From a virus: a stretch of DNA of 64,000 nucleotides. Position numbers and translations under genes: made by a program. This document shows positions 7,330-58,381 of this stretch, piece after piece. Within the stretch, counting starts at the first letter, position 1. Every line of letters begins with the position of its first letter. Under the pieces are notes generated by a model. It ran no database searches. It worked only from the letters and a program-made list of their open reading frames with translations, and was not told where the DNA came from. The stretch lies in the IMG/VR virus record IMGVR_UViG_3300035670_000028, positions 1-64,000 of that record, one strand, 5' to 3'.

Positions 7330-10300
7330 ATGCCTGAACAGACATTTAGATCCCCCGGATTCTTTGAGCAGGAGATTGACCTGTCCGCTCGCGCCGGCAG
7401 CACTCTTGGAATACCGGCAGGAGTAATCGGCACATCAAAGAAGGGCCCTGCGTTCGTGCCTGTGACGATTGGAACATTTACTGATTTCGAGAATCGTTTC
7501 GGCACCCTCGATCCCGATCGCTTTGGACCTTATGCAGTCAATGAGTTCCTCAAGCATCGAAATGCTGTGACATTCGTGAGGGTCCTTGGCGCAGGAGCGA
7601 ACAGCACGGAGTCTGATCTCAACAACACGGAGACGATGGGAATCGTAAAGAGCGCAGGATTCGTCCTGTCAGCTTCAGCGACCGACTACTCTCCTGGCGC
7701 AGTTCAGTTCCTCTGCGCAAGCCAGTCACTCCAGTCTGGAGAGCTTGCAGGTTACCCTGTCTTCTCTGACAATCGCTCCTTCAATGAGAGAAGCACGACT
7801 CTCAACGACGCGAACCTCGTCCGCGCTGTGATATTCACAACGACAGGCTCTAGGATTGAGGTGCTTGACTACAATCAGTCTTATTCGGCACCTGCTGCTG
7901 GAGACTCTCTTGCTGATGTAGGAAATGGATCGATTGGTGAGCCCTACTTCAAGCTCGTAATTTCGTCATCTCAGGGCGCGTCCTTCTCCTATGATGAGCT
8001 AAATGCTGGAATAAGGATCCTCACAGCTTCGCTTAATCCATCGAGCAAGCACTACATCGCAAAGATTCTCAATACAAATCCTGACAAGTTCCAGGAGATG
8101 CAGCACCTCCTGTATGTCGACCTTCCTGTTGAGAACGAGCTTGCAACAGTCAAGTCTGTCGCAATCCTCTCAGGAACGAGCGGAACCACGACATCAGGCG
8201 GTGACAAGACGACACCCTACAGAAATCTATTCGGCAAGTTCAATACGCGTTACACGACTCCCAAGACGACTGCCATCATCTCACAGCCGTTCGGAACTGT
8301 TGAGTACGATCTCTTTCACTTTGAGACGATAAGCGATGGAGAAGCGACCAACGAGGAGTACAAGGTGTCGATTGCGAATATTCGCAAGTCGCTCGATCCT
8401 GCAAACGCGTATGGAACTTTCGATGTTCAGATACGTCGCTTCACAGATGTGGACACTCTGCCAGAGATTCTCGAGGTATATCCTGCTTGCAATCTCAATC
8501 CAAAGAGCGAGAATTACATTGCTCGAAAGATTGGAGACAAGAAGGTACACTTCAACTTTGATACGACTTCTGACACAGAGCAGCGCCTCATCGTTACAGG
8601 CAAGTACCCCAATCTGTCAACGAGAATTCGCGTCGTCATGAATCAGGCAGTTGAGAATCAGACGGTTCCCACCGACGCGCTGCCATTCGGTTTCAGAGGA
8701 ATTCCTGTCCTCAAGACATCTAACTCTCTCACAGACGATAGTCTTGTTGTGCTCTCAGACAGATTCGGTGTGAGCCTAGGTGATAGTGCAACATCTCGAC
8801 TCGGAGGCATAACAGCAGCAGTGACTCCGCTCTCTGCGTCCATTCTTCCTCCCCTTCCTCTTCGATTCAAGGTGACAAGAGGCGCTGTGAATGATGGAAC
8901 GTCAACAGCTATCTCTTTCATAGGAGATCCAGGCGACAACGAGCGCGCCGACAATCGTCTATACTGGGGTGTGAAGTTTGAGAGGCTTCCCCTAGAGGCC
9001 ACAGTCACAAATGCCGTGCTGAACTCTAACGTCTCTGATGTCGCCAATCCCCTTGTGAAGGGATATGCGAAGTTCCAGGGAATTGCAAAGCTTGACACAC
9101 TAGTGACAGGCGCAGCAGCAGACGAGTTCAACAACAATAAGTTCACACTGTCTCGTGTCGCTCTCTACAATCAGCTGCAGGGCGGCCAGATAACTGACGT
9201 GACAGGAACAGCGAGAGAGCACATGCTTGAGGCGTCCTACCTCAGAAATGGCACGCCTAGCGCAACTGACTACACCATAAACGACGCAGTTCTTGGTGCG
9301 AACAGAATCACAATGGCGACACTTGTTCACTCCGCGTCCTCTGTGTTCAACAGGTTCCAGGAGTTCAATAAGTTCACCACAATGTTCTACGGTGGTTTTG
9401 ATGGCGTGAACCTCCTTGATAGAGACAATCGTCTCCTCAACGATCGCGCGAGCTCCTCCGACACAGGTGGTAAGGCAGGTGACACGTATGCTGGAGGCCT
9501 AGGCCTTGCAGGAACAGCTGTTGCTGCGATGTCAGGCAAGGGCAAGGACAACAACGTTGTTGCCGCATACCAAGTTGCCACACGACTCATGACTGATGAG
9601 ATCTCTTCCAATGTCAACGTTCTTGCAATTCCAGGCATCAGAGATGTTCTCGTCACAGACTTTGCGCTGGATGCTGTAAAGAAGTATGGCATGGCCATCT
9701 ATCTCATGGATGTCCTAAACTATGACGTGGACTCAAACCGCCTCTTCGATGACTCCTCCGCCAAGCCGGATGTGAGAGAGACATCAGAGCAGTTCGATGC
9801 GAGAGCAATCAATAACAACTACGGCGCATCGTACTTCCCAGATGTCTTCCTTCGCGATAACGTTGCAAATCGTCCTGTGAAGGTACCCGCTTCGGTCGCA
9901 GCTATGGGAGCCCTTGCATTCAATGACAAGATTGCCTACCCATGGTTCGCACCCGCAGGATTCAATCGCGGTGCCCTCGCGGAGGTCTCAAACGTCGCGA
10001 CACGTCTTAATTCTGAGGACAGAGACGTTCTCTATGACAGCAGAATTAATCCCATCGCGACATTCCCAACCGGTGGATTCGTGATCTTTGGTCAGAAGAC
10101 ACTTCAGCAGGCGAAGTCTGCTCTCGATCGAGTCAATGTCCGTCGTCTTCTTCTCGAGGTCAAGCGTCTTGTCGCTGGCGTGGCAAAGCGGTTGCTCTTT
10201 GAGCAGAATGATGCCACAACTCGCGCCAAGTTCCTAAGTCAAGTGACACCTCTTCTTGCTCTAATACAGTCTCAGTCTGGCATTGAGCAGTTCCAGGTTG

Positions 10301-10440
10301 TCTGCGACGATACAAATAACACAACTCTTGACGTAGAGGCCAATAGAATGAATGGAAGAATCGTTCTTGTGCCAACACGTGTTGTAGAGTTCATCTCCAT
10401 CGACTTCATCATCACAAATAGCGGCGTGTCGTTCGAGTGA
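7330..10440 (+). CDS. Tail sheath protein, copy 1
   Basis: 1,036 residues, well above T4 gp18 (659). The N-terminus (FRSPGFFEQEIDLSARAG, then IPAGVIGTSKKGPAFVPV) is the standard sheath opening. The C-terminal ~150 residues (AYPWFAPAGFNRG, SALDRVNVRRLLLEVKR, then VEFISIDFIITNSGVSFE) are the conserved sheath core that joins neighbouring subunits. The middle ~500 residues are an insertion, presumably the outward-facing decoration domain. The sheath contracts around the tube during DNA injection. SD AAGGAG at 7317-7322. A second paralogue follows 44 nt downstream. Confidence 0.92.
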   Translation: MPEQTFRSPGFFEQEIDLSARAGSTLGIPAGVIGTSKKGPAFVPVTIGTFTDFENRFGTLDPDRFGPYAVNEFLKHRNAVTFVRVLGAGANSTESDLNNTETMGIVKSAGFVLSASATDYSPGAVQFLCASQSLQSGELAGYPVFSDNRSFNERSTTLNDANLVRAVIFTTTGSRIEVLDYNQSYSAPAAGDSLADVGNGSIGEPYFKLVISSSQGASFSYDELNAGIRILTASLNPSSKHYIAKILNTNPDKFQEMQHLLYVDLPVENELATVKSVAILSGTSGTTTSGGDKTTPYRNLFGKFNTRYTTPKTTAIISQPFGTVEYDLFHFETISDGEATNEEYKVSIANIRKSLDPANAYGTFDVQIRRFTDVDTLPEILEVYPACNLNPKSENYIARKIGDKKVHFNFDTTSDTEQRLIVTGKYPNLSTRIRVVMNQAVENQTVPTDALPFGFRGIPVLKTSNSLTDDSLVVLSDRFGVSLGDSATSRLGGITAAVTPLSASILPPLPLRFKVTRGAVNDGTSTAISFIGDPGDNERADNRLYWGVKFERLPLEATVTNAVLNSNVSDVANPLVKGYAKFQGIAKLDTLVTGAAADEFNNNKFTLSRVALYNQLQGGQITDVTGTAREHMLEASYLRNGTPSATDYTINDAVLGANRITMATLVHSASSVFNRFQEFNKFTTMFYGGFDGVNLLDRDNRLLNDRASSSDTGGKAGDTYAGGLGLAGTAVAAMSGKGKDNNVVAAYQVATRLMTDEISSNVNVLAIPGIRDVLVTDFALDAVKKYGMAIYLMDVLNYDVDSNRLFDDSSAKPDVRETSEQFDARAINNNYGASYFPDVFLRDNVANRPVKVPASVAAMGALAFNDKIAYPWFAPAGFNRGALAEVSNVATRLNSEDRDVLYDSRINPIATFPTGGFVIFGQKTLQQAKSALDRVNVRRLLLEVKRLVAGVAKRLLFEQNDATTRAKFLSQVTPLLALIQSQSGIEQFQVVCDDTNNTTLDVEANRMNGRIVLVPTRVVEFISIDFIITNSGVSFE

Positions 10441-10483: not shown

Positions 10484-13400
10484 ATGGCTGAGCTGACATT
10501 CAAGAGTCCAGGCGTGAGCACAAGGGAGATCGATCTCAGTGGTCCTGCGAACGTTCTGCCACAGGGAACTCCTGCTGGTGTTATTGGCACCGCGCAGAAG
10601 GGCCGCGCATTCGTTCCGATCACAGTAGCAACATATCAGGACTTCGTCGCTGAGTTCGGTGCTACTGATGGTGAGAAGTTTGGACCACTTGCAATGTATG
10701 AGTGGTTCCAAAACGCCCGGGCAGGAACATATGTGAGGACCCTGGGTGTGGGTGATGGAACAAAGCGGCTAGTTTCAGGAATCAATGCTGGCAAAGTGAA
10801 CTACGCAGGATTCGTTGTAGGCGCTCAGCAGGTTCAAGTAAACGGTCAGATTGGCAGCAATTCGTACGCCGGCATCGATAAAGCAGGTTACAAGGGAGAG
10901 CTTGGAAGGACCTACTTCCTAGGCGCTTTCATGTCAGGAACTTCTGCCTCTCCCATTCTCTCAGACACCAATGTGCAGAAGACATCAGCAGCTGTTCCGA
11001 TTGTTCGCGGCGTTCTAATGGCTGCATCTGGCGTCATTGTCTCACTATCTTCATCCTACTCAACAAATAACGATCCAAGCGACATCTATAAGTCATCTGG
11101 CTCATTCACGTCCAACACTGTGATTGGCGACGCTGGAGCTCACCTAGGCACTGTCAATATCAACAGTGGCAGGTCTGACTTCGTTCTCTTTATGAACGGC
11201 CTCGTTCCCACGGCCCAGTTCTCCAACGTTATAACAGCATCTTTCGATCCCGCCTCCGCTCAGTACTTCCCGAAGGTTCTCAACACTGATCCTTATAGAC
11301 TTGAGTCCGCGGGACACTACCTGTACACAAGCTGGGATGTACATCCATCCTACGCAGTTGTTACCTCGTCGGGCGTTCAGACAGGAACTCCTGCAGGAAC
11401 AGGTCTGGTTGAGGCAGCATTCCTTCTCACGGGAACACAGACATACAACAGCGGTGCCCTCACACTGCCCAATTACGAAGGCTTCGAGTCAAGGTACGCT
11501 ACCGCATTCTCACCCTTCGTAGTTTCTCAGAAGTTTGGTGGCAAGCCTCAGAATCTCTTTAGACTACACTCACTTGATGACGGTTCCTCCGGAAACAGCC
11601 AGTTCAAGATCACAATCGAGAACATCGCTGCCTCCAGAAATGAGAACAGCCCCTACGGTACCTTCGACCTTGTAATTCGGTCCTTTGGCGACACGGATGA
11701 GGATAAGGTCGCGCTGGAGACGTTCCGAGCCCTCTCTCTCGATCCCAACTCCGATCGTTACATCGCACGTGTGGTGGGCGACCAGCACATCTACTACGAC
11801 TTCGATCAGCGGAGAGGCGCTCAGAAGCTTCGCGTCGAGGGGTCCTACCCGAACTCCTCCAAGTACGTGAGAGTGGAAGTGGCGTCCGATGTTGAGAGGC
11901 AGATAATTGACGCGTCAGCGCTTCCAGTCGGATTCCGCGGACCACACTTCCTCCTCACATCCGGAACAAACGCGTCGGGCGCAGCAGCACTCCACGGCTA
12001 TGTGACAGGAACGCTGGATCACGGAGTCGATGTCGCAGACCTTCAGGCCGCGCAGGTCGCACCAATCCCATACCGACTCAACATCGCGAAGGGAACAGGC
12101 CTCAGCAAGAAGGTCAATGCTTCCCTCACGTGGGGCGTTCAGTTTGAGGTTCAGGACAATCTCGCTGATCCGAACGGCACTGTGGGTCCGGACGCATCCC
12201 GTGCATCCTACACCAAGTACTTCCCGATGTACCACACCAACTTCCGCAATGTGATGCTCGGAGACACTGTGGGCCTCGCTGACGACGGTGGCATGGTCCT
12301 TGACTCAGATAAGTTCCAGAACAACCTCTTCTCTCTGGAGAACGTTCAGATTGCGACGGGGTCCACTGATAAGCCCGATGAGAAGGCGTGGGATATTGCC
12401 TCCTACCGAAGGAACGGAGTGAAGCTCACAGCACTCACTGCCTCTGATGGACGCACATTCGACGCAAACAACACGCGCTTCCTCGACCCTATCAAGGACT
12501 TCGACCACGTTCCCTCGAGGAAGTACCTCAAGTTCTCCTTCTTCATGCAGGGAGGATTCGACGGTGTCAACATCTTCGATCGCCAGAAGTCCAAGCTCAC
12601 TGATATCGCGGTTCGCCGTGAGATCGACAATATCGCGCAGGGCGGAATTGAGGGACCCACAGTCAACGCCTACAGGAAGGCGATCGATGTTATGTCCGAG
12701 AAGTCCGACGTCGACATTCAGCTCCTCGCCATCCCAGGAATTCGACACTACAGCGTGATGGACTACGCGGTCGACGCTGTGGAGAGCCGCTTCGACGCCC
12801 TCCTCCTGATGGACGTCGAGGAGCGCGATCAGTTCAACGAGCCCATGACAGGCTCCTCCGTGCAGATGCCCTCCGTCTTCAACACGGTCAACCGCATGGC
12901 GGACCGCAACATGGACACCTCCTTCGCTGCGGCGTACTACCCCGACGTCGTGATGCAGGATCCAGGCACCCTCACAAACATTGTGGTTCCTCCCACGGTC
13001 CCCGTCCTCGGCGCCTTCGCGCTGAACGACACAGTCGCCTACCCCTGGTTCGCTCCCGCTGGCTTCACACGCGGCGCGATGCCACGGGTCCTAGAGACTC
13101 AGGTGAAGCTCAACAGGGCGAACCTCGATGACCTCTACGAGGTGGACATCAACCCGCTCACATCCTTCGCCGACTCCAACGGTGTCGTGGTGTTCGGACA
13201 GAAGACCCTCCTCGCTGCACAGAGCGCGCTTGATCGGGTCAACGTTCGCCGCCTCCTCATTGAGATCCGCCGGCGCGTGCGCCGCGTCGCGAACACGATC
13301 CTCTTCGAGCCTAATCGTGAGTCCACCCTCTCCCGCTTCTCCGCTGCCGTGACACCCATCATGCAGCAGATTCAGGCGCAGCGCGGCCTCGATCGGTACA

Positions 13401-13543
13401 AGGTGCAGATCGACACCACAACGACCACCGCGGCCGACGTGGAGAACAACACGATCCGCGGCAAGATCTACCTCCAGCCCACGCGGTCCCTGGAGTTCGT
13501 CTCCCTCGACTTCGTGGTCACAAATCAGGGCGCGACAGTTTGA
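10484..13543 (+). CDS. Tail sheath protein, copy 2
   Basis: 1,019 residues, colinear with copy 1: FKSPGVSTREIDLSGPANVL opening, then TPAGVIGTAQKGRAFVPI, and the same APAGFTRGAM / LDRVNVRRLLIEIRRR / FVSLDFVVTNQGATV ending. Both copies look intact, so two sheath isoforms could co-assemble or occupy different zones of the tail. The 3' half is visibly more GC-rich than copy 1. SD GGAG (10472-10475) is followed by ATG 10484. Transcription is probably stopped by the hairpin at 13573-13600. Confidence 0.92.
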   Translation: MAELTFKSPGVSTREIDLSGPANVLPQGTPAGVIGTAQKGRAFVPITVATYQDFVAEFGATDGEKFGPLAMYEWFQNARAGTYVRTLGVGDGTKRLVSGINAGKVNYAGFVVGAQQVQVNGQIGSNSYAGIDKAGYKGELGRTYFLGAFMSGTSASPILSDTNVQKTSAAVPIVRGVLMAASGVIVSLSSSYSTNNDPSDIYKSSGSFTSNTVIGDAGAHLGTVNINSGRSDFVLFMNGLVPTAQFSNVITASFDPASAQYFPKVLNTDPYRLESAGHYLYTSWDVHPSYAVVTSSGVQTGTPAGTGLVEAAFLLTGTQTYNSGALTLPNYEGFESRYATAFSPFVVSQKFGGKPQNLFRLHSLDDGSSGNSQFKITIENIAASRNENSPYGTFDLVIRSFGDTDEDKVALETFRALSLDPNSDRYIARVVGDQHIYYDFDQRRGAQKLRVEGSYPNSSKYVRVEVASDVERQIIDASALPVGFRGPHFLLTSGTNASGAAALHGYVTGTLDHGVDVADLQAAQVAPIPYRLNIAKGTGLSKKVNASLTWGVQFEVQDNLADPNGTVGPDASRASYTKYFPMYHTNFRNVMLGDTVGLADDGGMVLDSDKFQNNLFSLENVQIATGSTDKPDEKAWDIASYRRNGVKLTALTASDGRTFDANNTRFLDPIKDFDHVPSRKYLKFSFFMQGGFDGVNIFDRQKSKLTDIAVRREIDNIAQGGIEGPTVNAYRKAIDVMSEKSDVDIQLLAIPGIRHYSVMDYAVDAVESRFDALLLMDVEERDQFNEPMTGSSVQMPSVFNTVNRMADRNMDTSFAAAYYPDVVMQDPGTLTNIVVPPTVPVLGAFALNDTVAYPWFAPAGFTRGAMPRVLETQVKLNRANLDDLYEVDINPLTSFADSNGVVVFGQKTLLAAQSALDRVNVRRLLIEIRRRVRRVANTILFEPNRESTLSRFSAAVTPIMQQIQAQRGLDRYKVQIDTTTTTAADVENNTIRGKIYLQPTRSLEFVSLDFVVTNQGATV

Positions 13544-35562: not shown

Positions 35563-35587
35563 ACTAACTAGAGTGTGAGCCAGCGAG

Positions 35588-35610
35588 CGCGCCCCGCCAG
35601 GGGTGCGTTT
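35588..35610 (+). terminator. GC-rich hairpin between SSB and recombinase genes
   Basis: CGCGCCCC (35588-35595) and GGGGTGCG (35600-35607) pair over 8 bp (one G-U) with a GCCA loop, followed by TTTGCATTT. It may act as a partial terminator that lets SSB mRNA exceed recA mRNA. Confidence 0.45.
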
Positions 35611-35628
35611 GCATTTAACGAGGGCACC

Positions 35629-36810
35629 ATGGCAAAGAACACAGAGCAAGACAGCTTCACAGATGATCTGATCAAGTCACTCAATAAGTCGCACGGATCC
35701 CGTGTGGCCTATAACCTCGCATTCGATGAGTCACCCACACACGTCAAGCGGTGGATCAGCACGGGCTCCAAGCAGCTCGACTACATCATCTCTAACCGCC
35801 GCAACGGTGGCCTTCCTGAGGGACGGATCGTCGAGATCTTCGGCCCACCCTCTATCGGTAAGTCACACATCGCCATTCAGATCGCGCGCTCCACTCAGAA
35901 GATGGGTGGAATTGTGGTCTACATCGACACGGAGAATGCCACCTCAGTCGAGAACCTTGGACTCCTCGGGGTCGACGTCAAGAAGCGCTTCGTCTATGTT
36001 GACACCCACTGCACAGAGGAGGTCCTCTCGATCGCGGAGGAGACGATCCTCAAGGCGAAGGCGATGGACAAGGACGTGCCTGTCACCATCATCTGGGACT
36101 CAGTGGCTGCAACATCACCCAAGGCTGAGCTCACAGGTGACTACGACAAGGACTCGATCGGCCTGCAGGCCCGTGCAATCTCCAAGGGCATGCGCAAGAT
36201 CACAGGCGTCATCGCCAACCAGAACGTGCTTCTCGTCTGCCTGAACCAGATTCGCACGAAGGTGGGTGTCATGTACGGCGATCCCACCACAACACCTGGC
36301 GGTATGGCGATCCCCTTCCACGCATCAGTCCGAATCAAGCTCGGTGCAGGTCAACACATCCTCAACAAGGACAAGGAGGTCATTGGCATCAATGTCTCCG
36401 CAAAGACTGTCAAGAACAAGGTGACAGCGCCCTTCAGGACCGCTGACTTTGAGATTCACTTTGGCGTCGGAATCAAGGAGCACGAGCAGCTGTTCGACAT
36501 CCTTCGGCGCCACGGTCCTGAGACCGTTAACGGCCGCACGATCGAGATAGGTGGAACCGGCGCATGGAAGACACTGACGGTGCACAACGCATCGACAGGT
36601 GAGATCATTGTCGACAAGAAGTTCTACAAGGCTGAGTTCGACAAGATTCTCTCGGACCCTGAGTACGCTGACTACCTCGATGACCTCCTCGAGGCGGCGA
36701 TGTCCAAGAAGAAGGCGACTGAGGCTGCCGACGTGGATCCGGAGTCGTACGAGGAAGTGCGTGCCATTGCGATGGATGTAGATGTGTCAGACGTCTCTCC
36801 TGAGGACTGA
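35629..36810 (+). CDS. uvsX: RecA/UvsX recombinase
   Basis: 393 residues from ATG 35629 (SD GAGG); an upstream GTG 35575 lies before the hairpin and is unlikely. Walker A GPPSIGKS (72-79), Walker B TIIWDS (~153-158), catalytic-loop Glu in YIDTENA (~102), and an L2 region NQIRTKVGVMYGDPTTTPGG. The L2 and the GGMAIPFHASVRIKL strand look closer to bacterial RecA than to T4 UvsX. The protein forms filaments on ssDNA for recombination and recombination-dependent replication, with the adjacent SSB. The acidic C-terminus is typical of RecA. Confidence 0.88.
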   Translation: MAKNTEQDSFTDDLIKSLNKSHGSRVAYNLAFDESPTHVKRWISTGSKQLDYIISNRRNGGLPEGRIVEIFGPPSIGKSHIAIQIARSTQKMGGIVVYIDTENATSVENLGLLGVDVKKRFVYVDTHCTEEVLSIAEETILKAKAMDKDVPVTIIWDSVAATSPKAELTGDYDKDSIGLQARAISKGMRKITGVIANQNVLLVCLNQIRTKVGVMYGDPTTTPGGMAIPFHASVRIKLGAGQHILNKDKEVIGINVSAKTVKNKVTAPFRTADFEIHFGVGIKEHEQLFDILRRHGPETVNGRTIEIGGTGAWKTLTVHNASTGEIIVDKKFYKAEFDKILSDPEYADYLDDLLEAAMSKKKATEAADVDPESYEEVRAIAMDVDVSDVSPED

Positions 36811-42548: not shown

Positions 42549-43151
42549 ATGAAGTGGACAACAAAGGTATCGCCGCTGATCAAGGAAATTGAGCTCAGGA
42601 AGAGCCCAGTCATCATTCGAGTCAACAAGTTCGATGAGGAGTCTGCCCTCAAGTTCGATCAAGAGGTGGCACAGGCCCACAATACCGGTCAGAAGGTGAT
42701 TCCTGTGGTCATTGATTCATACGGAGGGCAGGTGTACTCCCTCATGTCGATGATCTCAGCCATCAAGCACGCTGAGCTTCCTGTGGCCACGATCGTCGAG
42801 GGTAAGGCGATGAGCTGCGGAGCTGTCCTGCTCACCTTCGGCGCAGACGGCATGAGGTTCGCTGATCCTAATTCCACGATAATGGTGCACGATGTCTCCT
42901 CCATGGAGCTCGGCAAGGTCGAGGAAGTGAAGGCAGGCGCAGCAGAGGCCGATCGACTGAATGAGAAGATCTACACCATGATGGCCAGGAACTGCGGTAA
43001 GCCAGACGATTACTTCCTCAAGATCGTCGATGGTAAGAAGCACGCTGACTGGTTCTTCGACGCCGAGGAGGCCCTCAAGCATGGGTTCGTCAATCACCTG
43101 AGGGTGCCAAAGCTGAACGTCGAGGTCGCTGTCACAATCGATTTCGAGTGA
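42549..43151 (+). CDS. ClpP-family serine protease
   Basis: 200 residues. Catalytic Ser89 (GKAMSCGAV), His114 (IMVHDVSSM) and probable Asp167, with the 25-residue Ser-His spacing of ClpP. A SYGGQVYSLMSMISAIK helix provides the oxyanion segment. The protein begins close to the fold, without a long propeptide, and no unfoldase gene is adjacent. Phage ClpP-like proteins either work with host Clp ATPases or act as head maturation proteases. It lies after nrdA, not in a head operon, so a regulatory role is as likely as cleavage of the leader peptides described here. Confidence 0.85.
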   Translation: MKWTTKVSPLIKEIELRKSPVIIRVNKFDEESALKFDQEVAQAHNTGQKVIPVVIDSYGGQVYSLMSMISAIKHAELPVATIVEGKAMSCGAVLLTFGADGMRFADPNSTIMVHDVSSMELGKVEEVKAGAAEADRLNEKIYTMMARNCGKPDDYFLKIVDGKKHADWFFDAEEALKHGFVNHLRVPKLNVEVAVTIDFE

Positions 43152-48685: not shown

Positions 48686-51235
48686 ATGATCAAGTCGCCC
48701 GCATCGATACTGTTCGACATCAACGGCATTGCGACAGCAGTGTCCGCCTCGGACCAGCCAACGTCAGGCGCCCTGGGGCATGTGATGGCAGGCTTCGACG
48801 AGACGAAGTCGGTCAGGTACGCCTCATTCATCGGTGATGCCCTCAAGGTCGATGGCCTCGTGAATATCGCCTCGAGCGATTCGTTCTCGAGCGCAATCGT
48901 GGGCAGCAGGTACAACCAGCTGGAGATCGCCTACGATTCCACCGATCCTGACAGCATCGATAAGATAACTGTCACGAAATCGAACGGCGGCGATGCCATC
49001 AACTCAGGTGGCCAGGCTGTTTTCAGTACCTCAGTGGCCACGAACGGCGGGATCAAGGCAGTAACTGATGCCACCGTATCCTACCGCCCGCACGCTGAGG
49101 TGTACGCTGCCTTCACCTGCATATTCACGGCAGGGGTTGCTGATAGCTACCAGCGGATCGGCATCTACGATAGCAACAACGGATTCTTCATCGGATACGA
49201 GGGCACCTCGTTCGGAGTAACGATCCGCAAGGCAGGCTCCGATACAACCACCGCCCGCGCCTCCTTCAACCTGGATACTCTCACCGGCGCCTCGGACTCG
49301 AAGTACACCCGCGCTGGAGTTCCTGAAACCCTGGATCCCACGAAGGATAACCTCTACCGGATCAGGTACGGGTGGCTGGGCGCAGCACCGATCGTATTCG
49401 AGGTGCTATCACCGGATGGCGGCTGGGTGCCATTCCACATCATCAGGCACCCGAACACCAACGCTGCAACCACGATCAACGATCCTGACCTCCCGATCAC
49501 CCTGGATGCGCAGAAAACTGCAGGCGCCACCAACATCACAATGTCGACCGCCTGCTGGGCTGCTGGCACCACGAGCGATCTTGACCGAGTAACTGCCACG
49601 ATATCTGATGATACTCTGGCGAAGCTGACCAGATCTGTTATAGCCGGCCAAACAACCGGCGGCGGTGGCGGATACGTGAACGTGAAGGTTACGCCGAGCG
49701 GTGCCCTCACGGTAGAGATCGATGATGGCGGCGGCAGCATCACCGTGGATGGCGTGATCACTGGATCAGGTGATGTTGGCATCCTCAGGCAGGCGGCCAC
49801 CCGCGATCTCTTCATCACCGGCTCAGTGGGTATCACGGAGGCACACGGGGTATTCAGCGGCACCCTCCCATCCACCGGAATGCCGGCAGGGTTCTCCGAT
49901 GGCACCCTCATGCAGGCTGCACGGGTGTACGATCTGAACACCTCCACGGGATCGGCGAACGAGGAGCACGTGCTCGGTGTGAGCCTGCGCTCGAGCAGCG
50001 TTTCAGGATCCCAGGAGCTGGGCACGATCTCGAACCCGCTCATCACCTCACCCGGCCCATACGGGAAAACGGTTTTCGGTGAGGAGAGGGTTGCCCTCCC
50101 ATTCGCCCTCGCTGATCTTATCAACAAGTACGAGATCACTCCCACCGAGTACTCCACGCTAACGAGCTCGGTTGGCACTCCCACGATCCTGCACGTTCCG
50201 GATGAATCTGCCATCCGGCTAACTGTGGATGGCACATCCGGGAGCTTCGGCAGGCTCCGCACGAACACCTTCTACCGGTACCAATCCGGCAAGGGGCAGA
50301 ACATCAAGATGACCCTGTACCACGGTGATACAGGCGAATCTGATCAGGTGAGGCGGTGGGGCTACTTCGATGAGGGTGATGGCCTCTTCTTCCAGCTATC
50401 GGGCTCGAACCTGGGCGTAGTGGAGAGGAAATCCACCACTGGATCCCCCACCGAGCTGTTCTACTCCCAATCTGCCTGGAACGTGGATCCCCTAGATGGC
50501 ACCGGCCCGAGCGGGATCACCCTCGATATCACGAAGAGCCAGATATACGAGATCAGGTTCCAGTGGCTGGGCGTAGGATTCGTTGATTATTACATCAACG
50601 GATATCGGATCCACAATATCCAGCACGCGAACCTCGTTTCCGGCCCCTACATGAAAACAGGCCAGCTTCCACTATCCTGGGAGGTGGAGAACAACCTCTC
50701 ATCATCAGCAGGGAGCATGACAACAGTGTGCTCATCCGTTCTTTCTGAGAACGGAGAGCCACCCCCAGAGTTCAGCTTCGCCGCCTTCAACTCCACCCCT
50801 GTGAGCGTAACCACAACCGAGGTTCCGGTCCTGAGCATCCGCCCGAAGGCAACCTACAATGGGATAACGAACAGGATCATCACCCTCCCGAAGAAATCCG
50901 TGGTTTCCACTGAGGGCTCGCGCATATCCTACCGGATCCTGTACAATGCAACCCTCACCGGCGCCTCATGGGCATCCGTGGCATCCACATCCGGAACCGA
51001 GTTCGATGTATCTGCCTCTGCATTCACGGGCGGCGAAACACTGTTCTACGGGTTCCTTCCCAACAGCAATGATGCCGAGGGCGCTGAGCTGGAGAAGTAC
51101 TTCAGCATCCTGGCCAGGAAGCTGCGCCAGAACGCATTCGCCACAGGTGTTGATACCCTCACGATCGTGGCGAGGAACGAGGCTGCAGGTTCAACCTCAG
51201 TGCGCGCAGCACTGGTATTCACAGAGGTGCGGTGA
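48686..51235 (+). CDS. Large tail-tip / receptor-binding-type protein
   Basis: 849 residues. Two related ~130-residue beta domains: one at ~165-305 (YDSNNGFFIGYEGTSFGV, NLYRIRYGWLGAAPIVFEV, WVPFHIIRHPN) and one at ~550-690 (FDEGDGLFFQLSGSNLGV, QIYEIRFQWLGVGFVDYYI, YRIHNIQHAN). Both read as jelly-roll or lectin-like sheets. The C-terminus is a third beta region. There is no SD at the usual place and TATATT lies 18 nt before ATG. From about 48,972 onward GAC and GTC are almost absent, unlike the first ~280 bases of the gene, so the composition break falls inside the gene. Receptor binding is inferred from layout and position. Confidence 0.65.
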   Translation: MIKSPASILFDINGIATAVSASDQPTSGALGHVMAGFDETKSVRYASFIGDALKVDGLVNIASSDSFSSAIVGSRYNQLEIAYDSTDPDSIDKITVTKSNGGDAINSGGQAVFSTSVATNGGIKAVTDATVSYRPHAEVYAAFTCIFTAGVADSYQRIGIYDSNNGFFIGYEGTSFGVTIRKAGSDTTTARASFNLDTLTGASDSKYTRAGVPETLDPTKDNLYRIRYGWLGAAPIVFEVLSPDGGWVPFHIIRHPNTNAATTINDPDLPITLDAQKTAGATNITMSTACWAAGTTSDLDRVTATISDDTLAKLTRSVIAGQTTGGGGGYVNVKVTPSGALTVEIDDGGGSITVDGVITGSGDVGILRQAATRDLFITGSVGITEAHGVFSGTLPSTGMPAGFSDGTLMQAARVYDLNTSTGSANEEHVLGVSLRSSSVSGSQELGTISNPLITSPGPYGKTVFGEERVALPFALADLINKYEITPTEYSTLTSSVGTPTILHVPDESAIRLTVDGTSGSFGRLRTNTFYRYQSGKGQNIKMTLYHGDTGESDQVRRWGYFDEGDGLFFQLSGSNLGVVERKSTTGSPTELFYSQSAWNVDPLDGTGPSGITLDITKSQIYEIRFQWLGVGFVDYYINGYRIHNIQHANLVSGPYMKTGQLPLSWEVENNLSSSAGSMTTVCSSVLSENGEPPPEFSFAAFNSTPVSVTTTEVPVLSIRPKATYNGITNRIITLPKKSVVSTEGSRISYRILYNATLTGASWASVASTSGTEFDVSASAFTGGETLFYGFLPNSNDAEGAELEKYFSILARKLRQNAFATGVDTLTIVARNEAAGSTSVRAALVFTEVR

Positions 51236-51648
51236 TGGCCACATTCGATACAGATAGGATAACCACAACCCGCCTCGATTCCTGGGCCGAGATCAGGAAG
51301 TACCTCGATGGCACGATCGCCTCACTCGCCTTCCAGTTCGATGATCGCGGGGATTTCTACACGATCATCACCGAGCCGTACGCAGGGATCACCCTGCAGT
51401 ACTCGATCAAGAAGGATGATGGGCCCGAGCAGAGCGATTTCGAGAACAACTACAAGGATCTGGCACCCCGCCGAACTGGAACCTTCGATGGGAACAGTAA
51501 TGCAACTCTGGTTACCAGCAATGGGCAGAGCGTGCAGATCGTTAACTCGCTCCGCCTCGAGCAGCTCCTATCCCAGGTGCTGCAGGAGCTGAAGAGGATG
51601 AATTCTCAGCTGCAGATAATTACAGATGAGGAAAACGATCTACTATAG
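51235..51648 (+). CDS. Tail-tip cluster small protein
   Basis: 137 residues, ATG coupled to the previous stop (TGATG). Polar start, a beta core (SLAFQFDDRGDFYTIITEP, GITLQYSIKKDD) and a C-terminal coiled coil (LRLEQLLSQVLQELKRMNSQLQI). Shape suggests an oligomeric connector in the tip complex. Entirely within the GAC/GTC-depleted block. Confidence 0.6.
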   Translation: MATFDTDRITTTRLDSWAEIRKYLDGTIASLAFQFDDRGDFYTIITEPYAGITLQYSIKKDDGPEQSDFENNYKDLAPRRTGTFDGNSNATLVTSNGQSVQIVNSLRLEQLLSQVLQELKRMNSQLQIITDEENDLL

Positions 51649-51666
51649 AGCACTGGAGATGAACCG

Positions 51667-52242
51667 ATGAACTACATTCAGGATGGAACCGGCAAGGGCT
51701 ATCTCGCCGAGGTAACAGAGCACAATCAGCTTTCGATCGCAGGAATCGCAGATACGAGCTATGATGCTGCCTCCCAAACGGGGGAGAGCTTCAACGTGAA
51801 CACGGAGTTCGTTTCGATCACAGTTGGCACAGAAACCCCCCTGTTCTACTTCAAGAACAATGAATCGAATCCAGCAGTGATCGTGGGTTGGTTCATCGGA
51901 ATTGGGCTAGCCGGCGGCGCTGCCACCGAGAACGCGATCCTTCGAACGTATGCGAATCCCACTTCAGTTTCCGGTGGAGTTAGCCTAACAACCGTGAACA
52001 GAACGATCGGATCAGGCAGAACCTTCTCCTTCGATGCGAAGAAGCAGGATAGCGGAACTCCACTCACCGGCACACTGCCATCAACTCCGGTCCTGTACCA
52101 AACGCAAACGGCATCATCCCGCGTGTTCGGAAACGTGTACCTCACCGTTCCAAAGGGCAACTCGCTGATCGTTACGTGCCAGCTGAACGGTGCACAAACA
52201 GCGAACATTTACACAGGCTTCACCGGCTTCGTGGCAGGATGA
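51667..52242 (+). CDS. Tail-tip paralogue A
   Basis: 191 residues. N-terminus IQDGTGKGYLAEVTEHNQLSI matches paralogues at 52259 and 52861 ('I-x-D-G-x-G-x-G ... V-x-x-x-N-x-L'). A beta-sandwich follows (FVSITVGTETPLFYFKNNE, VFGNVYLTVPKGNSLIVT) ending in a small hydrophobic cap. SD GGAG before ATG. Within the GAC/GTC-depleted block. Likely one of three related decoration or tip proteins. Confidence 0.6.
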   Translation: MNYIQDGTGKGYLAEVTEHNQLSIAGIADTSYDAASQTGESFNVNTEFVSITVGTETPLFYFKNNESNPAVIVGWFIGIGLAGGAATENAILRTYANPTSVSGGVSLTTVNRTIGSGRTFSFDAKKQDSGTPLTGTLPSTPVLYQTQTASSRVFGNVYLTVPKGNSLIVTCQLNGAQTANIYTGFTGFVAG

Positions 52243-52258
52243 GGAGAAGGAGCACACC

Positions 52259-52846
52259 ATGGCAAGAATAGAGGATGGCAGGGGCAAGGGATTCCAGGTA
52301 GCTGTTGATTCCACCAACCGGTTGGAGGTTCACGCTGCCACTGTTGATGAGGAGAGAGTTGCAACCATCGATGGTGAGGCATGGCAGTTTGGCAGTGCCA
52401 CGGTTGCCTTCACGGCAGCAACAGCATCCGCGATCCTGTTCGTGAAGAACACCGATACAAGAGATATGGTTATCGATCGCCTCCGCCTGCACCTAGGCAC
52501 GGTCACGGGAGGCACCGGAGATTGGACACTGGGAATCGTTAGGAATCCCACCGCGGGAACCCTAGTTTCTGCCGGCACTGTGATCACGCCCACGAACATC
52601 AACCACGGATCATCGAAGGAGCCAACCGGCACGTTCCTCCGCGGAGTGCAGGGCTCAACCCTCACTGATGGCACCACCTCATCATTCCCGATCAAGTCAT
52701 CGGGAGATGGAATCATCATCTTCCCGTTCGGCAGGATCCTGCCAACAGGTGCCTCGATCGGGATCAGCGTGACCCCACCAACAGGCACCACCGCAGCGAA
52801 CGCGGTGGCAGTTCTGAGGGGCTACTACCCAGCTGCAGATGTGTGA
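52259..52846 (+). CDS. Tail-tip paralogue B
   Basis: 195 residues from ATG 52259, with SD GGAGAAGGAG; the frame is open upstream in the previous gene. N-terminus ARIEDGRGKGFQVAVDSTNRL repeats the family motif. The beta body (SATVAFTAATASAILFVKN, GDWTLGIVRNPTAGTLVS, GIIIFPFGRILPTGASIGI) parallels paralogue A. Within the GAC/GTC-depleted block. Confidence 0.6.
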   Translation: MARIEDGRGKGFQVAVDSTNRLEVHAATVDEERVATIDGEAWQFGSATVAFTAATASAILFVKNTDTRDMVIDRLRLHLGTVTGGTGDWTLGIVRNPTAGTLVSAGTVITPTNINHGSSKEPTGTFLRGVQGSTLTDGTTSSFPIKSSGDGIIIFPFGRILPTGASIGISVTPPTGTTAANAVAVLRGYYPAADV

Positions 52847-52860
52847 GGGCGTGAGGGCAG

Positions 52861-53490
52861 ATGATTAAGAACCTCATAGTAGATGGAGAGGGCTCCGGGA
52901 GGATCGCCGCTGTAACCCCCCAGAATGCCCTCAAGGTCCTGCCCCTGCCCACCACATCCCGCGGATTCACGGCGCGCGAGCTCGCCAGCCTGCGCATATA
53001 CCGAGAGTTCCTCAGCAACACAGCCGGCTCCACCGAGATGGCAGTGGATGGCTCGGTCACGAACGTGGAGTTCAGAATTGTTGCTGCCAGCACCCAAACG
53101 AAGTGGATCAAGCAGCTCAGGTTCACCCTCGAGGATGCGAACATGGAGCTCACCACATCAGATTTCCGTAGGTTCGGAGCAGCAACTGCAACGAACACGC
53201 CCCTCACCAATGGGATCCAGATCGAGGCAGTGCAGGGAGGAATACTCACCAATATTGCTGCCGAGCCGATCACCGTTCTCGGAGACTTCCTCAACTACGC
53301 GGATGCCTACCTCAACTTCTCGAACGCGATCTCCACGAACGAGGATTTCGTGCTCTTCGACTTCGACTTCATGACTCCAGTTGTGCTCGTGCCAGGAAGC
53401 AACGATTACATAGCAGTTCGCATAAGGGACAACCTCACCGCAGTGAACACGTTCAGGTGCCTCGGAAGGGGGATCGCGGAGATTCTATGA
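52861..53490 (+). CDS. Tail-tip paralogue C
   Basis: 209 residues. N-terminus IVDGEGSGRIAAVTPQNALKV is the third version of the family motif. The rest (EMAVDGSVTNVEFRIVAAST, KWIKQLRFTLEDANMEL, SNDYIAVRIRDNLTAV) looks beta-structured. The GAC/GTC depletion ends in its last ~200 bases (from ~53,285). It overlaps the next gene by 4 nt (ATGA). Confidence 0.6.
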   Translation: MIKNLIVDGEGSGRIAAVTPQNALKVLPLPTTSRGFTARELASLRIYREFLSNTAGSTEMAVDGSVTNVEFRIVAASTQTKWIKQLRFTLEDANMELTTSDFRRFGAATATNTPLTNGIQIEAVQGGILTNIAAEPITVLGDFLNYADAYLNFSNAISTNEDFVLFDFDFMTPVVLVPGSNDYIAVRIRDNLTAVNTFRCLGRGIAEIL

Positions 53491-57400: not shown

Positions 57401-58381
57401 ATGCCGCTGAATAAGGATTTGGAGCCCATTGAGCTTCCGATGGAGCTCAAGTTTGGTAGACCTGTCAAGACTGAGTACCTCAATGCCCTCGACGCGCTCA
57501 AGGTCGAGCTCGTGGACCACCCCACACGTCAACAGGCGTGGAATGTCGCGTGGCACTACGTCAAGGCGACGTGGGCCGATCGCCCGGACATCGATCCGTC
57601 TCGTGCGACAGAGCACGAGCTCTCCAAGAACCTCGAGGACGTGTTCGGCGGCAGGACCCTGCCCGCTCCGATGGAGTGCCTAGGCTTCACGTTCCGCCTC
57701 AGTGGCCTCTCCTTCCAGGATGTGACCCACATCATTCGCCACCGAGCTGGAACGTTCGCCGCGCAGTGCACAGGTGATCGCGACCTCCGCGACGATGCAG
57801 CAGTCATTCCTGAGCCCGTCCAGAACTCCCCCGAGTTCCTCGAGCGCTGGAAGCAGATCGTGGACGACGCGAAGGAGCTCTACGCCGACATGACCGACTC
57901 CAAGGTCGTCTCGATGATGGACGCTCGCCTCATCCTGCCGAAGTGCATGACCTCGTTCTACTACATGCGCCTGCCCCTCAAGGACCTCGTCGGGTTCATC
58001 TATCAGCGTAAAGATGTTGCAATCCAAACCGCCAGTGACAATATTCTTGCCGTTAAAATGGCTGTTGAAGTTGCAAAGGTCATTCCTGAGTTCACTTCTA
58101 TGATTGATTTTGATAAGCCTGACATGCATTTTGTAAAGACATTTAGAGTCAAGGACGGTGATAAGTGGGTTTCTAGAGGAACAAACTTGTATTGGCCTGC
58201 ACAGAAGAACGATATTTTCGAATATCACCCGAATGACACGATTTATCAGTCGACCAGAGAAGATCTCAATGGCACTGATGGTGTGGGTCCACAGAAGAAG
58301 TTCACAGAGCATTGGAACGCAGGCCTCGCTGAGTTCAATCAGATCAAGTCTGATTATAATGCCTGGCGTTCTCAAAAGTGA
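57401..58381 (+). CDS. thyX: Flavin-dependent thymidylate synthase (ThyX-like)
   Basis: 326 residues. The key region GLSFQDVTHIIRHRAGTFAAQ (~102-121) contains the ThyX RHR (113-115), although the usual RHRxxSxNExSxRY motif is changed (RHRAGTFAAQCTGDRDLR). ThyX converts dUMP to dTMP using FAD and folate, matching the dUTPase-like genes upstream. It is longer than typical ThyX (~220-250), with a C-terminal extension. From about 58,010 the sequence turns AT-rich, inside the gene, and this continues through the homing endonuclease downstream. SD GAAGGAAGGA precedes ATG. The 71-nt gap before it shows nothing else. Confidence 0.78.
   Translation: MPLNKDLEPIELPMELKFGRPVKTEYLNALDALKVELVDHPTRQQAWNVAWHYVKATWADRPDIDPSRATEHELSKNLEDVFGGRTLPAPMECLGFTFRLSGLSFQDVTHIIRHRAGTFAAQCTGDRDLRDDAAVIPEPVQNSPEFLERWKQIVDDAKELYADMTDSKVVSMMDARLILPKCMTSFYYMRLPLKDLVGFIYQRKDVAIQTASDNILAVKMAVEVAKVIPEFTSMIDFDKPDMHFVKTFRVKDGDKWVSRGTNLYWPAQKNDIFEYHPNDTIYQSTREDLNGTDGVGPQKKFTEHWNAGLAEFNQIKSDYNAWRSQK

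Follow-up and report, generated by a model that had tools for sequence, protein, structure and literature searches.

Blocks nearly devoid of the word GAC/GTC in a large phage genome suggest import from phages under restriction-like selection

Why should one three-letter word be almost missing from part of a phage genome and common in the rest of it? The question is raised by the first 64 kb (hereafter the window) of a 147,186-bp phage record of IMG/VR, IMGVR_UViG_3300035670_000028, here named G000. GAC and GTC, written together as GWC, a word which is its own reverse complement, nearly disappear from a block of genes, B1, at 48,972-53,284 (53,358 when the end was placed by segmentation; the block has no strand). 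B1 contains 16-17 GWC as compared to 164 expected from a dinucleotide-based Markov model, i.e., an observed/expected ratio (o/e) of 0.10 (Poisson P about 1e-49), and 50,828-52,090 contains none. A first-pass annotation made by eye had put the number of sites at about 15, where 17 were counted, the empty gap at about 1.26 kb, which is real, and the number in a control stretch at about 21, which agrees with the 34.8 GWC per kb (about 21 sites) of the control gene at 42,549-43,151. Other trinucleotides are not likewise depleted, as would be expected if GWC itself is avoided: the remaining 31 pairs have an o/e of 0.64-1.93 in B1, the next lowest being AAA/TTT at 0.64.

The depletion had been described as a single block, which is correct for B1 and incomplete for the record. 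A two-state segmentation of the whole of G000 delimited five depleted blocks, namely B1 (48,972-53,358), B2 (61,789-69,130), B3 (73,131-75,326), B4 (138,398-140,246) and B5 (145,245 to the record end), within which GWC density is 0.5-5.9 per kb vs 37-49 per kb elsewhere. In the sliding-window scan proposed in the first-pass annotation, an o/e below 0.3 was reached by GWC in 51 windows of 1.5 kb, by AAA in 4 and by no other trinucleotide in any. B2, which begins in the window, is cleaner than B1, with 7 GWC seen in the complete block vs 237 expected (o/e 0.03), and B4 and B5 together reach 0.01. The block genes are all on one strand, and the blocks are slightly richer in G+C than the core (57% vs 54%). 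The expected counts rest on Markov models; open reading frames (ORFs) come from simple script-based calling, which makes individual small genes provisional, and the block-level result is independent of them.

Does the loss reflect a choice of codons or of DNA words? Aspartate is encoded by GAT in 95% of cases within the blocks, GAC making up 4.7% of its codons vs 62% in the core, and GTC accounts for 2.7% of valine codons vs 33%, just as the first reading had noticed for both residues. The codons of asparagine, histidine, tyrosine and phenylalanine are still mostly C-ending (56-90% by block). When synonymous codons were permuted with protein and codon usage fixed over the coding sequence of all depleted G000 blocks, 54.7±5.8 and 161.6±8.0 GWC were expected in the two out-of-frame registers, and only 2 and 20 were observed. 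A third base of A or T is found in 0 of 115 glycine or arginine codons that precede a C, vs 41% before other bases. Intergenic DNA inside the blocks carries 1 GWC vs about 29 expected. These results, together with the same shuffle in a second phage, G001 (IMGVR_UViG_3300009181_000033, a 297,894-bp record), showed avoidance independent of frame and codon; it acts, as had been claimed, on the DNA itself, and is seen between genes as well as in every frame.

Where did the blocks come from? Several features suggest an import and not a constraint acting where the blocks now stand. B2 and B3 flank the DNA polymerase III gene at places where core genes are adjacent in relatives, and B2 is made up of packed small genes inserted between an epimerase gene and DNA polymerase III. 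Block edges lie inside or near other genes. The left edge of B1 falls within the gene at 48,686-51,235, in which codons 1-95 have normal GWC and the remainder is depleted, the last normally spaced site being at 48,971; the first-pass annotation had placed an edge in this gene, which is confirmed, but the edges of B1 are less sharp than it stated, the residual GWC being concentrated toward both block ends. The IMG/VR relatives of this gene's product (40-72% identity) and those of DNA polymerase III showed no GWC depletion in the loci fetched. Small genes of the GDLVR family lying outside the blocks have normal GWC, including a GDLVR-like gene directly left of B2 (61,568-61,870, plus strand; 42.9 per kb), which speaks against a gene-family effect and suggests that the signal follows the imported DNA. 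The donor lineage suggested earlier is therefore supported by insertion into a conserved core order as well as by normal same-family genes outside.

A search of other genomes, which had also been recommended, revealed similar GWC-poor blocks in two diverged phages, G001 and G008 (IMGVR_UViG_3300034101_006325, 200 kb). G001 was reached via a search with the AAA ATPase adjoining B4; when this ATPase was sought in bacteria of the phylum of record G027, general AAA matches only were returned. The depleted island of G001 (56,668-69,322) has 21 GWC vs 341 expected and the depleted stretches at the left end of G008 have 6 vs 99, the o/e being 0.06 in both. Several island genes of G000 have homologs in the G001 island, and gene 65,664 of G000 shares with its G001 homolog a protein identity of 84% and a DNA identity of 86.5% over 185 bp; for most core proteins common to the two phages the identity is about 30-60%, reaching 74% at most, so that the much greater likeness of this gene is a sign of exchange. 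An IS200/IS605 insertion encoding TnpA and TnpB at 63,543-64,839 of G001 lies inside the GWC-poor island and has normal GWC, i.e., newly arrived DNA is not depleted. IMG/VR records may be incomplete or misassembled, yet part of the G001 island is 100% identical in a further record, G002. The DNA polymerase III of G008 is 67% identical to that of G000. A GWC-poor stretch of G008 holds a gene (L208:3157-4446) of the myxobacterial AgmX/PglI type, its C-terminal domain being akin to the gliding protein GltG, which hints at a myxobacterial host. GWC-poor host DNA was rejected as the source, since bacterial relatives of this gene have normal GWC (o/e 0.89-0.96).

The islands of G001 and G008 avoid a second word, GpC. 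It was met by following a codon oddity in G001 and was not predicted beforehand; among the dinucleotides of G001, GpC alone stood out. Its odds ratio is 0.38-0.49 in these islands vs 0.99-1.14 in the core, and alanine, all codons of which contain GC, declines from 6.8% to 3.2% and 2.7%. Across codon boundaries GpC occurs 62 times in G001 vs 107.5±7.2 by shuffle and 18 times in G008 vs 43.2±4.8. GpC is not depleted in the G000 blocks, and the GpC-poor stretch of G001 reaches beyond the GWC-poor one, therefore the two pressures are separable. A further phage record, G006 (IMGVR_UViG_3300036770_007539, loci L180-L194), has a 3-kb GpC-poor stretch at L193:7001-10000 (about 267-270 kb; odds ratio 0.1-0.5 vs a G006 median of 1.31), without GWC loss and with a different gene set including a methyltransferase-like gene.

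What could have removed the word? On balance we consider it probable, though far from assured, that the blocks are imports from related unsampled phages in which GWC was purged by selection, most likely by a restriction-type enzyme of the host. In such donors selection would have removed nearly every copy of the duplex word, and the pressure would most likely have been an enzyme of the donor hosts attacking GWC. Donor DNA would then enter the present phages by recombination, as discrete accessory or structural blocks, and a GWC-rich core would persist in them since the present host is without the enzyme or the core is protected. The agent would accordingly be a host-encoded, restriction-like nuclease. 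That it reads GAC as well as GTC, i.e., a duplex site, had been argued from the joint loss of both and is supported; of the enzymatic pressures that had been listed, restriction or nicking is plausible with no enzyme identified, and deamination does not agree with the proportional replacement of valine GTC described below. Rusinov et al. (2018, PMC6286503) described sites with an o/e below 0.1 as an 'eliminated' class, consisting mainly of orthodox Type II restriction sites. GWC falls into this class, with 0.10 in B1, 0.03 in B2, 0.01 in B4 plus B5 and 0.06 in the islands of G001 and G008. The B1 gene at 51,667-52,242 (plus strand, 1 GWC) has relatives of 62-66% identity in two phages, G006 and G005 (IMGVR_UViG_3300005527_000040, loci L200-L207), which were found with two neighbouring proteins joined as the query, only the second of them matching, and which are not GWC-depleted. 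G006 has 0 GGCC in 300 kb vs 442 expected, and genome-wide 1 GAGCTC vs 44, 1 GACGTC vs 17 and 0 GTGCAC vs 12 expected; G005 has 0 GAGCTC vs 50, 1 CTGCAG vs 35, 2 CTCGAG vs 31 and 6 TCTAGA vs 32. As both purge known restriction sites, phages exchanging genes with G000 live under restriction.

Several observations weigh against this explanation. The core is rich in GWC, therefore the present host cannot restrict this word unless the core is protected. A beta-class N6/N4 methyltransferase gene near B3 (record 76,669-77,460) could, speculatively, be a candidate protector of the core; next to DNA polymerase III the relatives showed no such gene. The open-access papers searched yielded no enzyme that recognises a 3-bp GWC site, and to our knowledge none is known. 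Among about 3.9 Mb of other loci scanned there was no donor with genome-wide GWC loss, and in the three carrier records only blocks are depleted. The import model is at its weakest over the G+C content of the blocks, which differs among the carriers (57% in G000, 43% and 46% in the others); several donors must then have contributed, or the pressure was still acting after G+C had shifted.

This spread of G+C would suit a phage lineage better than a single host, and so leads to the suggestion that a nuclease specific for GWC is encoded by the donor phages and shreds host DNA, their own genomes being safe by lacking the site and not by modification. We regard this as unlikely, because none of the depleted-block genes tested could be recognised as a nuclease (most block genes are without a family match) and an active gene would cut the G000 core.

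A rather improbable alternative is that the blocks were never imported and are constrained where they stand, by an agent acting on them only, e.g., an endoribonuclease cutting GAC/GUC in one temporal class of transcripts. The location of all G000 block genes on one strand fits such a constraint, as does a block G+C that roughly tracks the carrier in G000 and G001; moreover, since GAC and GTC are each other's reverse complement, counts do not distinguish cleavage of RNA from that of DNA. On the other hand, a same-family gene pair is depleted in a block and normal outside it, block edges lie inside genes, and the IS insertion in G001 is itself not depleted, although it is perhaps a recent arrival. 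GWC and GpC are also both symmetric under reverse complement, for which a single-strand reader gives no reason.

Mutational loss in the donors, by a cytosine deaminase or by C5 methylation followed by deamination, would turn GWC into GWT. It was first suggested by B1, in which GAT/ATC and AAC/GTT are raised by about the number of GWC lost, and is very improbable after the codon-level tests, which spoke against it. Valine codons other than GTC are divided in the blocks into GTG 0.605, GTT 0.273 and GTA 0.122, compared with renormalised core values of 0.588, 0.313 and 0.099; a C-to-T process predicts a GTT share of about 0.54, and GTT is not raised. Conserved valine residues encoded by GTC in relatives of the B1 proteins are a mixture of GTG, GTA and GTT in B1. 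GGA and GGT before C were lost through a third base changed to G or C, glycine and arginine codons there ending in G or C; lost sites were replaced in the same proportional manner in G001, and the missing GpC of the G001 and G008 islands is replaced by GG/CC, not by GT/AC. This proportional redistribution indicates site avoidance rather than deamination. Cytosine-C5 methylase (PF00145) was not detected in the six phage records tested, which are perhaps incomplete and do not include donors, and was present in controls.

We give very little credence to avoidance of a protospacer-adjacent motif of clustered regularly interspaced short palindromic repeats (CRISPR) or of a primase start site. Both systems use trinucleotides, and avoidance of such a motif would hit either strand, but neither is generally expected to erase a 3-bp word across many kilobases: CRISPR exerts selection only on sequences matched by a spacer, and a primase cannot do without its start sites. 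Nothing favours the primase site that had been put forward at first, as the loss extends to every frame and is seen in certain blocks only. Codon bias, base composition or an assembly artefact, for which only the 57% vs 54% G+C could speak, is a negligible explanation, being ruled out by the protein- and codon-usage-preserving shuffles in G000 and G001, a wobble composition of the blocks within the core range, intact ORFs, and the recurrence of the pattern in separate records, including G002 with its identity to part of G001.

The genes of the blocks in the window lie on the plus strand. That at 48,686-51,235 (849 amino acids), in which B1 begins, belongs by its match (E 1e-91) to phrog_1645, a family of virion structural proteins, and the label 'tail-tip' given to the block at first was not borne out. 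It is followed by a small gene of unknown function without GWC (51,232-51,648), by the gene at 51,667, by one at 52,190-52,846 (true start probably near 52,262; 6.1 GWC per kb) and by one at the right edge (52,861-53,490; 11.1 per kb), where normal density returns. The part of B2 within the window (61,789-64,000, no strand; the block runs on to about 69,100) has a single GWC, at 63,650. Its first gene (61,867-62,217) has a homolog in the depleted G001 island (61,114-61,611) and, like the small genes at 62,090-62,677 (true start probably near 62,216), 62,667-62,969 and 63,063-63,332, contains no GWC; a small GDLVR-family gene at 63,422-63,712 contains one. The product of 63,063-63,332 begins with the motif MRIT..LR.IIRE, and an N-terminal motif like MRITE.QLR.IIR.E recurs in many unrelated-looking proteins, in the window at 696-1,910, 61,141-61,503 and 63,063-63,332 and in the record at 65,362, 65,664, 88,829 and 121,315; a role as a signal for targeting or packaging is possible. 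A small protein, VGKLYSCSKYFLL...VLAVEEKYVEVL, is present as three paralogs at record 73,869-74,466 and 146,083-146,373, in depleted blocks only, and IMG/VR yielded no relative of it. A search for the KLYSCSKYF and HVNRIDFNGTG families outside these phages led nowhere, nor did a DNA-level similarity search in phages and plasmids.

Elsewhere, the G000 record encodes a full-length GroEL (98,659-100,296) and, as judged by eye, two ThyX-type thymidylate synthase-like genes (window 57,401-58,381 and record 128,822-129,574). Two adjoining large paralogous structural genes (window 7,330-10,440 and 10,484-13,543) are both duplicated in G001 too. The RecA-like gene at 35,575-36,810 has a G001 homolog (210,362-212,129) which aligns as two segments with about 700 bp between them, as might result from an intron or homing-gene insertion.

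How does this compare with known systems? The blocks resemble restriction-site avoidance in that a symmetric word has an o/e below 0.1 in a double-stranded DNA phage, in coding as well as non-coding DNA (PMC6286503). They differ from it in the 3-bp length of the word, the mosaic blocks, the core full of GWC and the GpC suppression in two phages. Avoidance limited to part of a phage genome resembles the case of phage T5, whose first-step-transfer DNA, a single leading region shielded by the order of entry, is described as lacking EcoRI sites, whereas here five scattered blocks are found in G000 and other positions in other phages. In vertebrate viruses CpG and UpA are suppressed, and there too avoidance of a very short word shifts codon or amino-acid use, as GpC does for alanine here, but these are bacterial double-stranded DNA viruses with other words and a mosaic distribution. 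The small-gene cassettes between conserved core genes are those of ordinary phage mosaicism and accessory islands, except that a missing word marks the imported DNA without homology.

Avoidance of sites in phages is usually reported genome-wide and for 4-6 bp sites of known enzymes, whereas in the present phages, which are large and diverged, the eliminated word has 3 bp and is missing from mosaic blocks, and in two of them suppression of a 2-bp word is so strong that protein composition is altered. Tentatively, and with more doubt than confidence, an unrecognised nuclease family, anti-phage or phage-encoded, with a duplex GWC target and a separate GpC activity, could be proposed, the phages it targets forming a gene pool whose fragments are traceable elsewhere by the missing word alone. 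Such a nuclease would purge more than 90% of GWC (97-99% in the cleanest blocks) and halve the use of alanine. If the import reading is right, it points to an undescribed DNA-recognising activity with a short site and offers a homology-free marker of gene flow, by which a missing word may show the source of an import where no relative is known.

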